This document shows positions 29,091-41,651 of a DNA stretch of 64,000 nucleotides, one piece after another. Source of the stretch: Geobacter sp. GTDB lineage: Bacteria; Desulfobacterota; Desulfuromonadia; Geobacterales; Geobacteraceae. Below the pieces are notes generated by a model. The model made no database searches. It was not told where the DNA came from and was given only the letters and a program-made list of their open reading frames with translations. Each line of letters opens with the position of its first letter. Position 1 is the first letter of the stretch. The position numbers and the translations under genes are program-made. The stretch is from positions 117,828-181,827 of the forward strand of contig JACOUQ010000013.1 in assembly GCA_016177775.1 (NCBI GenBank), in the 5' to 3' direction.

Positions 29091-30656
29091 TCAGAGCATT
29101 TTCTCTAACGCCGTGTAATCGATCTTTGCGTTGTGCCGCCGGTCCATGGGTATCCGCTCTACTCCGCGCACCTCGTCCAGAAATGCCCATAGCAGACTGG
29201 CACGAAGTTCCGCCGTGGAAATGTCTTTCCCGCGTCGGGGCTCGACGAAGAGGATACGCTTCCCTCCGCGGGCAACCAGGGCAGCCCGGAGCAGCGCCTC
29301 GTTCTTCCGGGCCGCGCATTCTACGGTAAAGGGGTAGAGTGTTCCCCTGGCATCGCGGATGACCGAGGAGGCCCTCCCCAGGAGCCAGAGGCGCCCCTTT
29401 TGATCGAAACAGCCGCAGTCGCCGGTGCGGTGCCAGACTTCTTCACCCACGCGGAATTTCGTCTCCCCATCCCCCACGCCGTGCAGGTACCCCTTCAGCA
29501 CATGATCGCCGCTCACCACGATCTCTCCCGCTTCTCCTGCCGGAAGGTGCATCTTCTCGAACTCCGCGGCGCTGAAGGGGCCGAGGGGCGTCCCCCACTC
29601 CGCAGCAATGACCCTGGCCCGAATTTCCGGGACCGGCGCGCCCGCCAGAAGACCGCCACCCTCCTCCATCTTCCTGATATCCTCTGCCGTCATCTCCTGC
29701 CAGGCAATGTGCGCAATGGGTTCCGCCTCGGTCGAGCCGTAGACTGCGACGATTTCCGCGCCAGCAAAGGTGGCGGCGAATTCCCGCAGGTAATCGGGGA
29801 ATACCGGTGCGCCTCCGGTGAAGACGTGACGGAAACCGTTGATCCGGCGACCTGTCCCGCTGCACCTTTCGCAAAGCCGCGCCAGGAAAGCGGGAGAGGC
29901 TACGGTGCGGGACGGTCGGAAACGTTCGATCTGCGCCAGAACCGGGGCAGGGTCGATCGATCCGGGATGGCGCAGGTCAGCGTCCGGGATGAGGGAAGCG
30001 ACGCCGGACGCCAGGTTCGCAAAGACAAAGACCGGCAGCGTGGTGAGATCGATCTCGCCCGGAACGAGGGCCATGGCCTTCTCCAGCACCCGGTGCTGCT
30101 CCAGAAGGAAACCGTGACTCCGCACCGCCGCCTTGGGAAGTCCGGTGCTGCCGCTGGTGAAGGTGATGAGGGCCGGTGTTTCTGGGGGTGCGGGAATGAT
30201 GGCCGCATGCGGGGGGAGCTGTTGGCCCCTGCTCCAGGGGATTGCGCCGGGGACGAAGCTCCCCGTGGAAAAGGTGCGGGGAATGCGGCGCAGCGAAGAA
30301 GAAACGAGCCGAAGCAGGTGGGCCTTCGGCGTGGCAATGAGGCCGTCTGGCCTGCGTATGGCGCAGCAGCGCTCCATGTGATCGAGCCCGGCCGAGGGAT
30401 CGAGAATCATGGCGATCATCCCCAGGCGGAAGAGCGCCAGAAGGGAAATGTACAGCTCCGCTGACATTGGCTGAAGCACGAGGACCGTATCGCCCGCCTT
30501 GAGCCCGCTTTCCAGGAGGAGGGAGGCTCCCCGCGCCGTTTCCTCATCCAGTTCCGCGAAGGTAATCGTCCGGTCCCTTCCTTTGTGGATGTCGATGATC
30601 GCCGGGGCGTCCGGGCGCTCATGGGTCTGACGCTGGAGGACCTCCACGATGTTCAC
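29091..30656 (-). CDS. OleC-like acyl-AMP ligase (ANL superfamily)
   Basis: 521 residues from the GTG at 30656, which overlaps the GNAT stop (GTGA) and opens with NIVEVLQRQTHERPDAPAI. ANL motifs: A3 ITFTSGSTGLPKAAV, A5 YGSTEAEPIAHI, A7 RTGDCGCFDQKGRLWLLGR; a C-terminal lysine is in NAKIDYTALEKM. The regions DLTTLPVFVFANLASGVASLIPDAD and FTGGAPVFP resemble OleC, which turns beta-hydroxy acids into beta-lactones. The OleC resemblance is from memory of the family, so a fatty acyl-CoA or acyl-AMP ligase remains possible. No OleA, OleB or OleD partner is in the window. Confidence 0.8.
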   Translation of the reverse strand: MNIVEVLQRQTHERPDAPAIIDIHKGRDRTITFAELDEETARGASLLLESGLKAGDTVLVLQPMSAELYISLLALFRLGMIAMILDPSAGLDHMERCCAIRRPDGLIATPKAHLLRLVSSSLRRIPRTFSTGSFVPGAIPWSRGQQLPPHAAIIPAPPETPALITFTSGSTGLPKAAVRSHGFLLEQHRVLEKAMALVPGEIDLTTLPVFVFANLASGVASLIPDADLRHPGSIDPAPVLAQIERFRPSRTVASPAFLARLCERCSGTGRRINGFRHVFTGGAPVFPDYLREFAATFAGAEIVAVYGSTEAEPIAHIAWQEMTAEDIRKMEEGGGLLAGAPVPEIRARVIAAEWGTPLGPFSAAEFEKMHLPAGEAGEIVVSGDHVLKGYLHGVGDGETKFRVGEEVWHRTGDCGCFDQKGRLWLLGRASSVIRDARGTLYPFTVECAARKNEALLRAALVARGGKRILFVEPRRGKDISTAELRASLLWAFLDEVRGVERIPMDRRHNAKIDYTALEKML

Positions 30657-31648
30657 GGCAGCCTCCGGGCAAAGAGGGAATACTGACGGATCTTTATCCC
30701 GTGGCGCCCGCTCATGCCGCGGGAGGTGTTGTCCTCGTGCATCAGGGCGTGAATGGCGCGACGAAAGCCAAGCTCCCCGGCGTTTGCCGTAGCCCTTGCC
30801 ATCAGCAGACCGCCGATGCCCTTGCCGTTCCATTCGGGGAGGACGGCCATGGACTTGAGTATGACCGTGTCGAGCGCCTCTCCCCGCTGGGCGCGGAGCA
30901 TGTCGGGGAGCGCGAAGAGGAACCCGACATGCTTCCCCTCCTGCTCGGCGAAAAGGACCAGCTCCGGCATGATGAAGGGGCGGATCTTTTCGTACATCAG
31001 TTGAAACTCCTCGCGGGAGATCGGCGTGTAGAGGAAATTGTTCCCAAAGCCCGCAACGGAAAGGTCGTAGATCCTTTTCAGTTCATTCTCGAAGTCCTCT
31101 TGATCCAGATGGCGGAACGTTATCCCCAGCTTACTGATGCGGGCCTCCAGCTGAGTGGCATTGCGGATCGACCACCCGAGGTCGGGGTCGAGGTTGGAAT
31201 AGTAGCGGGCAAGCGAGGCAAAGCCGGCAGTTTCGAAATGGCGCGGGTAGTCGTCGGGGTTGTCCGGCTCCAGGAAGAAGGGGGGCTCTGTCCCGCGTTC
31301 CGTGACGAAGCGGTATTTGCGCCAGGTGTTTCCGTCCATCGGGCCGATTGCCAGGGTGCAGCCACGGCTTGCCAGCTCGCGGCAGGAATGCGCCAGCAGT
31401 TGAGCGGCGCTCGCGGCGTCCAGTGCCGCATAGTGGCCGATGACACCCAGTCGCTCGCCTGGATAGGGGGGGACGGCACTCCACCAGAGGGAGACGCGGG
31501 CTGTCATCTTACCTTGTTCGTCCAGCACCACCCAGTGGGTGTCGGGTGCATGGAGGGAGAATTCCGTGCCCCCGAGCGGCGTGATATCGCCTGCTCCTGC
31601 CAGCGATTCGAGTTGTTCCGGCGATTCGATCAGTAACAGGCTGGGCAT
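30653..31648 (-). CDS. GNAT-family acyltransferase
   Basis: 331 residues from the ATG at 31648 (GGAG six bases upstream). An N-terminal region (GVIGHYAALDAASAAQLLAHSCRELASRGCTLAIGPMDGNTWRKYRFV) is followed by a GNAT fold: LVLFAEQEGKHVGFLFALPD and KSMAVLPEWNGKGIGGLLMARATANAGELGFRRAIHALMHEDN, with the acyl-CoA pyrophosphate loop NGKGIGG. It should transfer an acyl group from a CoA-type donor to an amine or similar acceptor, possibly one activated by the overlapping ligase. A 163-base gap holding a palindromic repeat separates it from the kinase gene upstream. Confidence 0.85.
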   Translation of the reverse strand: MPSLLLIESPEQLESLAGAGDITPLGGTEFSLHAPDTHWVVLDEQGKMTARVSLWWSAVPPYPGERLGVIGHYAALDAASAAQLLAHSCRELASRGCTLAIGPMDGNTWRKYRFVTERGTEPPFFLEPDNPDDYPRHFETAGFASLARYYSNLDPDLGWSIRNATQLEARISKLGITFRHLDQEDFENELKRIYDLSVAGFGNNFLYTPISREEFQLMYEKIRPFIMPELVLFAEQEGKHVGFLFALPDMLRAQRGEALDTVILKSMAVLPEWNGKGIGGLLMARATANAGELGFRRAIHALMHEDNTSRGMSGRHGIKIRQYSLFARRLP

Positions 31649-31691
31649 GGGTTTCTCCGAGGTATGAACTGGTTTCATCCGGAAATTCACA

Positions 31692-31769
31692 GTAGGTTGG
31701 GCAAAGCACAGCGTGCCCAACAGTACCGTCGGTGATGTTGGGCACGGCACAAGCCTTTGCCCAACCTAC
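31692..31769. repeat. Inverted repeat inside the lipid-related gene run
   Basis: Arms GTAGGTTGGGCAAAG (31692-31706) and CTTTGCCCAACCTAC (31755-31769) are perfect complements. Inner segments CGTGCCCAAC and GTTGGGCACG also pair. This type of short GTAGGTTGGGC palindrome is scattered in many proteobacterial genomes. It sits between the prenol-kinase-like and GNAT genes and could act as an mRNA processing or attenuation site, or be a selfish repeat. Confidence 0.8.
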
Positions 31770-40700: not shown

Positions 40701-41087
40701 TTAAGCCGGAATAATTCGCATCCGTGGTATCAACGCCGGGTCCAGCTCCGCCATCCGTTCCGGCCCGAGCACAGTAAGCGCCTCCCGCATCCGATCGGCC
40801 GCTGCCACAAGGCCGTCCACATCCATCCGCTGGCATGCGGAAGCGACCCGCCGCAGGTAGCCTGCCCCTCCCTGCAGGAGGCGGACTGCGCCGCCAAAAT
40901 TACCTTCCCGCCAATGGTGCAGGGCCACGGCAAGCTGCAGGACTCCCTGGTAGAAGTCCCTCACTTCCCCCTCTTCCCCGACCCAGAGCTCCTCCAGGGT
41001 TTCGTGGCATTCGAACCAGTCCCCCCGGTTGAATTCGCCGTAAGCACGAAGAAGCTCGGCCGGCGGGCTGTCGTCGCAGTGGCGCAC
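40701..41087 (-). CDS. DUF309 family protein
   Basis: 128 residues from a GTG at 41087, three bases after the nitroreductase stop. The DUF309 core is clear: FNRGDWFECHETLEELWVGEEGEVRDFYQGVLQLAVALHHWREGN, a helical bundle with conserved HETLE and QGxxQ. The function of the family is unknown. It is cytoplasmic and 29 bases ahead of the phospholipase D gene. Confidence 0.85.
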   Translation of the reverse strand: MRHCDDSPPAELLRAYGEFNRGDWFECHETLEELWVGEEGEVRDFYQGVLQLAVALHHWREGNFGGAVRLLQGGAGYLRRVASACQRMDVDGLVAAADRMREALTVLGPERMAELDPALIPRMRIIPA

Positions 41088-41090
41088 GGG

Positions 41091-41651
41091 CTATGACTTC
41101 CATTTCCCGTAATGAACGATCTCGTCCAGCGGCTTGCGCGGCGGGGCCGCCTTCAGCTCTTCCAGGGGGTAGCCGAGTGGCAAGAGGCCGACGATGCGGA
41201 TGCTCGGCGGGATATCCAGCAGCTCCCCCAGCTGTTCCTCGTCGAACACCCCAACGAAAACGCTCCCGAGCCCCTGGGCATGGGCGGCCAGCATCAGGTT
41301 CTCCGTGGCGATCCCCACATCGGCAAGGTAATACTGCTGTCCCCGCACCTCCCCTGACTGGTTCGGATCGGCGCACGCCACGATCACCACCGGCGCGGTG
41401 GCCAGGGCCTTCTGCGCAGGGTTGGTCTTGTATCCGCGCGGCGCGAAGAACGCCTCCACGTACGACAGCTCGCCGATCTTCGCCTTCATGGCCGGGTCCT
41501 CAACCACCACGAACCGCCAGCACTGCATGTTGGCCCACGAAGGGGCCATCCGGGCCGCCTCCAGCACGGTCTGGAGCTTTTCCGGCTCAACCGGCCGATC
41601 CGAAAACTTGCGTACGCTTCTTCGTGTCCTGATAGCTTCGAGTGCATCCAT
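41091..41651 (-). CDS. Nitroreductase-family flavoprotein
   Basis: 186 residues; ATG with AAGGAGG six bases upstream. FMN-binding features: AIRTRRSVRKFSDRPVE, APSWANMQCWRFVVVED, ADVGIATENLMLAAHAQGLGSVFVG and GLLPLGYPLEE. It uses NAD(P)H to reduce nitro compounds, quinones or flavins. It is preceded by a small reading frame with a hairpin (41665-41766) that may control it. As the first full-length gene of a long minus-strand run it may be the promoter-proximal gene for DUF309 and beyond. Confidence 0.9.
   Translation of the reverse strand: MDALEAIRTRRSVRKFSDRPVEPEKLQTVLEAARMAPSWANMQCWRFVVVEDPAMKAKIGELSYVEAFFAPRGYKTNPAQKALATAPVVIVACADPNQSGEVRGQQYYLADVGIATENLMLAAHAQGLGSVFVGVFDEEQLGELLDIPPSIRIVGLLPLGYPLEELKAAPPRKPLDEIVHYGKWKS

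Follow-up and report, generated by a model that had tools for sequence, protein, structure and literature searches.

The window analysed here, a 64,000-nucleotide stretch of a Geobacter sp. contig (JACOUQ010000013.1), carries a run of seven genes in which a homologue of HMG-CoA reductase (HMGR) lies together with a UbiA-family transferase and five further proteins (Table 1). The locus raises the question of what these enzymes make together, and whether the reductase supplies mevalonate. The initial annotation had read the run as a candidate pathway, not described before, for an unusual isoprenoid-containing or homoserine-type lipid.

Table 1. Genes of the cassette and its surroundings, with positions in the window.
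Gene product	Position	Strand	Length	Domain match and remarks
AMP-forming ligase, OleC/PRK09274 group	29091..30656	-	521 aa	PF00501 (AMP-binding) 3.5e-53; GTG start
Tandem-GNAT acyltransferase	30653..31750	-	331 aa from ATG start at 31648	GNAT 3e-08
Membrane prenol/long-chain-alcohol kinase-like protein	31812..33182	-	456 aa	no Pfam match
DUF3419, BtaA-like aminocarboxypropyl transferase	33183..34280	-	365 aa	PF11899 1.7e-69
Rph-type dikinase/phosphotransferase	34270..36942	-	890 aa	PF01326 (PPDK_N) 3.1e-67; PF00391 (PEP-utilizers) 3.9e-23
UbiA-family transferase	36942..37856	-	304 aa	PF01040 (UbiA) 4.7e-12
HMGR-like reductase	37853..39157	-	434 aa	PF00368 (HMG-CoA_red) 4.9e-114
PLD-family (ClsC-like) protein	39181..40836	-		PF13091; accessory
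Nitroreductase-family protein	41091..41651			within the interval, outside the seven-gene set

The open reading frames of all seven genes are on the minus strand and have no internal stops. Four joins are overlaps: 4 nt between the HMGR and UbiA genes, 1 nt (TGATG) between UbiA and dikinase, 11 nt between dikinase and DUF3419, and 4 nt between GNAT and ligase; the DUF3419 and kinase genes abut (0 nt). The only loose join is that from kinase to GNAT, whose length is 163 nt if GNAT begins at 31648 and 61 nt if the longest open reading frame, from 31750, is taken. A PLD-family gene lies directly upstream of HMGR, separated by 23 nt; among the loci compared, the only other cassettes flanked by such a gene are those of L042, L045 and G028 (L003, L004, L085). 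The strands, every overlap and the placement of the ClsC-like gene are thus as first annotated.

We find that the seven-gene run is a widespread conserved cassette. In a genome scan by the membrane-kinase family, from which the best 79 loci were kept and the window added, all seven families occur at 29 of 80 loci (28 among the best 79, plus the window). According to the phyla given in the records, the complete cassettes span at least 13 named phyla; 19 have the identical gene order and 7 more a rotation of it. Because the identical order recurs in other phyla, the run is more than a chance assembly. UbiA and the dikinase adjoin in all 49 loci that hold both, and a plasmid of Roseinatronobacter sp. 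S2 carries the full cassette in the order of the window. Comparison of the seven proteins by their pairwise distance matrices (21 pairs) gives correlations of r 0.54 to 0.92, and for each pair none of 300 permutations, which ignore kinship, gave a correlation as high.

The genes do not stay together everywhere. HMGR is present in only 3 of 58 near relatives, the window's own genome counted, and the HMGR-like genes of two phylum samples are mostly found in other contexts, with no cassette within the fetched flanks. The expectation that the set remains together among relatives is borne out in part, the cassette being complete at 29 of the 80 loci chosen by the kinase. Nine of the 80 loci contain every gene of the set but the reductase, and for six of the corresponding genomes a genome search found no HMGR; the alcohol is therefore not always made by the cassette itself.

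The cassette reductases carry substitutions at the residues for the HMG carboxylate. For 43 aligned copies (2 of 45 were too short and were dropped), positions were assigned by alignment to the human enzyme and PDB structures. The catalytic Glu, Lys, Asp and His are kept in all 43 (E119, K250, D324 and H415 in the window). Ser684 is Glu and Leu862 is Phe in every copy; position 735 is Met in 27, Val in 10, Ile in 4, Phe in 1 and Leu in 1, and Lys in none (E243, F411 and M293 in the window). The same traits, namely the catalytic E/K/D/H, a Glu at Ser684, loss of the Lys and a bulky residue at Leu862, mark FcrA, a proven fatty acyl-CoA reductase with the HMGR fold and without activity on HMG-CoA (Grossi et al., 2025; PMC11948995). 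Because of this residue signature, the cassette 'HMG-CoA reductase' is predicted to be an FcrA-type acyl-thioester reductase that yields a fatty alcohol. In a quick tree with long branches and without any assayed FcrA sequence, the cassette reductases split from three bacterial and one plant HMGR (SH-aLRT 98), and branch apart from N-terminally extended relatives.

The whole-domain HMG-CoA_red match and the four retained catalytic residues would also be expected of an enzyme that supplies mevalonate for isoprenoids, and a marker of that pathway occurs in 2 of 42 tested genomes. However, the HMG-carboxylate residues are replaced in 43 of 43 copies. HMG-CoA synthase was found in 3 of the 42 genomes and not in 39, mevalonate decarboxylase in 2 and not in 40, and IspH, a marker of the MEP pathway, in 37. 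The window genome, which is 85% complete, yielded neither HMG-CoA synthase nor mevalonate-PP decarboxylase. Two genomes, G064 and G069, possess second, canonical HMGRs that keep the Ser and Lys, and both have mevalonate decarboxylase. Considering also the FcrA precedent, we judge a mevalonate function very improbable, and this part of the original reading finds no support. Just as improbable is a role in wax-ester storage, which is brought to mind by the discovery of FcrA through wax-ester synthesis (PMC11948995): WS/DGAT, the wax-ester synthase, was detected in 1 of 42 genomes, in a search whose 14 control genomes did not supply a positive control.

Natural fusions point to the partners of the reductase. 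Among its best 120 listed homologues, 75 are fused to an AMP-forming ligase (several of these with a Pfam ACP domain), 20 to an EcKL/APH kinase, 3 to DUF3419 (one of them re-scanned) and 1 to ACBP. In addition, three genomes (G376, G395 and G469) hold a second cassette, in which a fusion of an FcrA-type reductase with an EcKL kinase is followed by a dikinase, UbiA, PssA, Psd and CarS. It lacks DUF3419, and adds genes for CDP-lipid formation (CarS), phosphatidylserine synthesis (PssA) and decarboxylation (Psd); its UbiA matches that of the seven-gene cassette with an hhalign probability of 98.2%. Because a kinase is fused to the reductase both in the second cassette and in 20 of the 120 listed homologues, the alcohol made by the reductase is suggested to be the substrate of the kinase.

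The membrane protein of the seven-gene cassette is a putative kinase, assigned from sequence motifs, from the names given to its relatives and from a fold match of modest strength. None of 36 aligned family members has a fitting Pfam match (the best, E 0.0069, appears unrelated), the window copy has no NCBIfam match, and several relatives are labelled phytol kinase or dolichol kinase by one source. The dikinase has an Rph-type architecture, with an N-terminal ATP-grasp and a C-terminal phosphohistidine domain, no PEP barrel following, and a conserved His in the motif SHSAIVARE. All its NCBIfam matches are under the cut-off, the top one being 'phosphoenolpyruvate synthase' (PRK06241.2-2, 807.5 against 883); the rifamycin phosphotransferase model scores 337 against 999. 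The substrate that we propose for it below is a guess.

The UbiA protein of the window has the Asp motif LRIADEFKDxxxD. Of 25 cassette UbiAs, 25 match PRK13592, 20 PRK12884, 14 PRK05951 and 4 ChlG; two DGGGP-synthase models match 7 and 4 of them (E up to 1e-5), and give no match with the window protein. UbiA enzymes are known for allylic donors, and a saturated alkyl diphosphate would be an unusual one. In line with the prenyl specificity of the family, the donor for UbiA could be an ordinary prenyl diphosphate, with a prenol recycled by the membrane kinase and a separate fatty chain provided by the reductase; the product would be a mixed isoprenoid lipid, or mero-lipid. The labels of the kinase relatives and the MEP marker in 37 of 42 genomes are consistent with this arrangement, but the kinase-reductase fusions favour the reductase's alcohol as the substrate, and we consider it unlikely.

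A homoserine-type head group is suggested by the DUF3419 protein, which scores 235 bits against PF11899 (cut-off 28.2), the domain that BtaA itself matches (PMC6642084). No BtaB-type N-methyltransferase was present among the seven genes or the recurrent neighbours looked at, and no glycerol-specific enzyme in the cassette. The ligase reaches 379 bits with PRK09274 (cut-off 478) and 213.5 and 204.6 bits with OleC models (cut-offs 900 and 850); no OleA-, OleB- or OleD-like partner was found among the families common to cassette loci. The reductase-DUF3419 fusions mean that the fatty alcohol itself could be the aminocarboxypropyl acceptor. A minimal O-alkyl homoserine lipid would then result, in which GNAT and ligase N-acylate the product to a two-chain, phosphorus-free lipid that UbiA and the kinases decorate further. 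Besides the three fusions, DUF3419 directly follows HMGR in the gene order of Omnitrophota and other hosts, and a methyltransferase is missing from the seven genes. In this scheme no obvious function remains for UbiA, dikinase and kinase, although the former two adjoin in all 49 loci that hold both, and the second cassette combines the same three activities without DUF3419; we regard it as a minority option with perhaps one chance in several.

We favour a route in which an FcrA-type fatty alcohol is converted, by the kinases and UbiA, to an ether lipid whose head group is of the homoserine type, at a probability of about 0.48. The chemical steps, their order and the acceptor, as we infer them, are as follows. 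The AMP ligase would activate an acid, and the FcrA-type enzyme reduce an acyl thioester to a long-chain alcohol, which the membrane kinase may turn into an alkyl phosphate; the Rph-type dikinase would supply the second phosphate. UbiA may then move the chain from the diphosphate onto a glycerol-type acceptor, as archaeal DGGGP synthase does, an allylic 2-alkenol being best suited to its chemistry. The DUF3419 protein would add the 3-amino-3-carboxypropyl group of SAM, and the tandem GNAT, with the ligase as its supplier, acylate the free amine, a position at which betaine-lipid synthesis introduces methyl groups. Of the original proposal, a single undescribed pathway with a homoserine-type transferase and genes linked across phyla is retained. 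A literature search, with preprints and most subscription papers outside its reach, yielded no description of the cassette.

Comparison with characterized systems places the cassette closest to several lipid routes. It resembles FcrA in the residue signature, in genomes that mostly lack the mevalonate pathway and in ACP fusions (PMC11948995). Assayed FcrA is N-terminally extended, whereas the window copy consists of PF00368 as its sole domain, and the cassette copies belong to a seven-gene operon, a separate branch and genomes nearly devoid of detected WS/DGAT. The role of FcrA in the many bacteria without wax-ester synthase was left open, with ether lipids suggested (PMC11948995); the cassette provides a defined seven-gene unit for this question. 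Hosts without a MAG mark are Natronospirillum operosum G-116 (L069), Alkalilimnicola ehrlichii AK92 (L077), Asticcacaulis sp. AC402 (L081), Cyanobacteria bacterium FACHB-471 (L057) and Roseinatronobacter sp. S2, with its plasmid. More generally, the label 'HMG-CoA reductase' in a bacterium need not imply a mevalonate pathway.

With OleABCD olefin synthesis the cassette shares a ligase of the OleC/PRK09274 group, but this falls under the OleC cut-offs and has no OleA/B/D partner among the shared families. The DUF3419 domain is common to BtaA/BtaB betaine-lipid synthesis, from which the cassette differs by its GNAT and ligase, its lack of a methyltransferase and the acceptor predicted. The bacterial PlsA/Ger, ElbD and AGPS routes likewise lead to ether lipids, those of ElbD and AGPS from fatty alcohols as well (PMC13274423; PMC11948995). 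The cassette encodes none of these enzymes, and UbiA is predicted to form its ether bond. Archaeal ether-lipid assembly (DGGGP synthase, CarS, archaetidylserine synthase) has in common the UbiA-type transferase and, in the second cassette, an operon with CarS-, PssA- and Psd-like genes. It differs in that GGGP synthase was not seen within the cassettes, whose chains are predicted to derive from fatty acids through an acyl reductase and two phosphotransferases. More tentatively, we speculate that both cassettes represent a fatty-chain ether-lipid route of archaeal logic, new to lipidomics and spread horizontally, including by plasmids, over at least 13 phyla, in which an HMGR-fold reductase, two phosphotransferases and UbiA would form the ether bond from an alkyl or 2-alkenyl diphosphate, capped with homoserine or, in the second cassette, phosphoserine/ethanolamine. 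If the UbiA step is correct, bacteria would have their own counterpart of the archaeal ether-lipid route, a point of relevance to the lipid divide and to the use of ether lipids as biomarkers.

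The window carries a cassette of seven genes, in which all of the gene overlaps described in the initial annotation were recovered. The ClsC-like gene that had been placed directly before the run is a PLD-family gene, which, among the loci fetched from genomes (L numbers; genomes have G numbers), reappeared only next to L042, L045 and the copy in G028. The interval originally proposed covers the seven genes and also took in a nitroreductase-family gene (41091-41651) that lies outside the set. Elsewhere in the window there is an ORF (47042-47725, minus strand) without a Pfam match at 0.001, which we take to resemble a REP-associated tyrosine transposase.

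Locations of the cassettes and associated features
Feature	Location	Strand	Remarks
Seven-gene cassette	window 29091-39157	minus	HMGR-like, UbiA, Rph-type dikinase, DUF3419, unnamed membrane kinase, GNAT, AMP ligase, head to tail
PLD-family gene	window 39181-40836		upstream of cassette, 23 nt before HMGR-like gene
Second cassette	L162:1225-9530	-	one operon
Second cassette	L166:3132-11437	-	one operon
Second cassette	L167:8787-17045	+	one operon
AMP ligase-ACP-HMGR-like reductase, 1010 aa	L116:7474-10506	+	Riflebacteria genome G096
MMPL/RND-type transporter	L013:11359-13302
MMPL/RND-type transporter	L022:14293-16098
MMPL/RND-type transporter	L032:5328-7637
MMPL/RND-type transporter	L065:11310-13586
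MMPL/RND-type transporter	L116:18306-20000

The HMGR-like gene had been read as an enzyme of mevalonate synthesis, an assignment that conflicts with both its residues and the gene content of the genomes that carry it. The 43 cassette copies that we aligned (two of 45 were too short and were dropped; human numbering) retain the catalytic Glu, Lys, Asp and His without exception. All 43 have Glu in place of Ser684 and Phe in place of Leu862, and Lys735, which forms a salt bridge with the HMG carboxylate (PMC9500038), is replaced by Met, Val, Ile, Phe or Leu. The same changes have been described in FcrA, a class I HMGR homologue that converts long-chain acyl-CoA to fatty alcohol and does not reduce HMG-CoA (PMC11948995; the lost lysine is printed there as Lys795, and is taken here as the same residue as Lys735).

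Genome content was compared in a hand-picked set of 42 genomes, consisting of the window's own, two relatives with the gene, and 39 of those behind the 79 loci described below (two of the 39 from kinase-only loci); the set includes several incomplete bins. HMG-CoA synthase exceeded the cut-off in three genomes, matching part of the model only, and mevalonate-diphosphate decarboxylase was found in two of these three (G064 and G069), each of which has a second, canonical HMGR that retains Ser and Lys. IspH of the MEP route is present in 37 of the 42 genomes, and was not found in G064, G069, G079, G080 and G086. PF00368 was likewise detected in 37, in one copy each save in G058 (two cassettes), G064 and G069 (the extra canonical HMGR) and G028 (a single gene split in two), and was not found in the other five; it also occurs in 9 of 16 additional genomes that contain partial loci. 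WS/DGAT matched in one of the 42, in a search in which no control genome gave a match.

We infer that the cassette encodes a route from an acyl thioester to an ether lipid with a head group, every step of which is predicted. The acyl thioester would be reduced to a fatty alcohol, which would be converted to an alkyl phosphate and then an alkyl diphosphate, from which UbiA would make the ether lipid that receives the head group. In the seven-gene cassette the latter would be an aminocarboxypropyl group provided by the DUF3419 protein; BtaA matches DUF3419 strongly (PMC6642084). The GNAT-ligase pair may N-acylate this group, replacing the methylation by BtaB. The predicted fold of the GNAT is a tandem GNAT, and the N-terminal half of the membrane kinase modestly resembles CdsA. 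Close to some cassettes, or to parts of them, lie MMPL/RND-type transporter genes (table), which possibly encode an exporter of the product.

The kinase family comprised 318 proteins, of which 120 were listed and 36 members aligned. Scanning the genome collection with this alignment gave 122 relatives, the best 80 of which represent 79 distinct loci; these were picked by the kinase alone, which favours loci that retain it, and annotated with HMMs made from the window proteins. The expectation that the genes stay together in relatives is borne out in part: all seven families occur in 29 of 80 loci (the 79 and the window), but the HMGR-like gene is present in only 3 of 58 genomes of near relatives, a count that includes the window's own. 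The remaining loci hold six (16), five (10), four (4), three (8) or two (2) families or the kinase alone (11), some being cut by a contig end. By record name the full loci span 13 phyla (the window has no named record). Nineteen of them keep the window's gene order and seven show the rotation GNAT-ligase-HMGR-UbiA-dikinase-DUF3419-kinase; L072 departs merely through a longest-ORF start, and L006 and L030 are rearranged. The expected genes are neighbours at 158 of 174 junctions, and the gap is at most 30 nt at 148 when measured between longest ORFs, which overstate overlap. UbiA adjoins the dikinase in all 49 loci with both. Pairwise comparison of the seven proteins' distance matrices gives correlations of 0.54 to 0.92; for none of the 21 pairs was the observed value reached in 300 permutations, which ignore shared ancestry. 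The two kinase-only genomes that were examined further (Riflebacteria and Leptolyngbya) have the HMGR-like gene, UbiA and dikinase together elsewhere.

Three genomes of the window's phylum (G376, G395 and G469) contain a second cassette, packed on one strand in the order reductase-EcKL fusion, dikinase, UbiA, PssA-like, Psd-like and CarS-like; in G453 the fusion occurs without adjoining dikinase and UbiA. The UbiA profiles of the two cassettes align with a probability of 98.2%; ERFP occurs in both, as does an Asp-rich LRxxD(E/D) region. The Psd-like protein passes TIGR00163, the PssA-like protein is equally near PssA and archaetidylserine synthase, under both cut-offs, and the CarS-like protein scores 79 bits against the CDP-bis-geranylgeranylglycerol synthase model (cut-off 148). 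Therefore, reductase, kinase, dikinase and UbiA recur with two different head-group kits.

Fusions were surveyed with a fused Riflebacteria protein as query. Among the 120 homologues listed, the best of 989 matched, the reductase is joined to an AMP ligase in 75, an EcKL/APH kinase in 20, PilZ in 13 (one with ACP), DUF3419 in three, and ACP, ACBP and ketosynthase in one each; in four no second domain is recognised by Pfam, one carries HMG-CoA_red_N, and a plant protein makes up the remainder. The Ser684 site is Glu in 72 of 76 ligase or ACP fusions, 3 of 3 with DUF3419, the single ACBP fusion and 19 of 20 kinase fusions, and deviates in the PilZ and ketosynthase classes. The reductase is therefore repeatedly joined to acyl-thioester makers or carriers, an aminocarboxypropyl transferase and kinases. 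Pfam detects ACP in several fusions, that of L116 as PF00550 (22.9 bits, cut-off 20.8); the L116 protein shares the domain layout of carboxylic-acid reductase, but its reductase part has the HMGR fold. The 13 PilZ-fused proteins (in the range P0197-P0222 of the listed homologues) have Arg, Lys or Gln at Ser684, whereas Arg590 is replaced by Ile, Val or Leu; they represent a further HMGR paralogue. P0216 joins a beta-ketoacyl synthase to an HMGR-like reductase.

Nine loci, two of them from one genome, contain the other six genes and no reductase (Melainabacteria, Endomicrobia, Lentisphaeria, a Cyanobacteria-named bin, a rumen bin, Gemmatimonadaceae and Latescibacterota), and six of the corresponding genomes yielded no HMGR. 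Thus, the reductase can come from outside the locus or be dispensed with. Counting against the proposed reading, two phylum samples contain HMGR-like genes that mostly show no cassette within the flanks seen. Eight from the Pseudomonadota sample (L173, L176, L179-L181, L183, L185 and L186) are close to the cassette type (612 to 653 bits), with Asp (7/8) or Glu (1/8) at the Ser684 site and no cassette neighbours within about 1.5 kb on each side; they may be lone fatty-alcohol makers or split cassettes. At L144, L154 and L155 (G113 and G152), an HMGR-like gene without the usual cis-loop motif is directly followed by an AMP ligase, a pair different from that of the cassette.

The cassette is accessory and likely moves between lineages, because the HMGR-like tree is discordant with the species, few near relatives have the gene, and a plasmid carries a copy. 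In the tree, the window copy groups with loci named Nitrospirae and Geobacteraceae; L006, another copy from Geobacteraceae, clusters with those of Nitrospirota and Omnitrophota. The 137-kb plasmid of Roseinatronobacter sp. S2 (NZ_CP121116.1; L163 and L165) bears the whole cassette in the window order; the circular record begins inside the HMGR-like gene, which is cut there. The strain is an alkaline-spring isolate, and LPS-type glycosyltransferase genes lie on the other side of the plasmid cassette. The bin of Nitrospirae bacterium GWC2_56_14 has two full cassettes on different contigs (L005 and L042), which may reflect a binning mix, since one branches beside the Geobacteraceae GWC2_55_20 copy.

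Among the papers listed for DUF3419, HMGR with UbiA or BtaA, FcrA and bacterial ether lipids, we found no account of the cassette, preprints and most subscription papers being outside our reach. The Ger and PlsA routes to bacterial ether lipids (PMC13274423) are built on other enzymes than those of the cassette.
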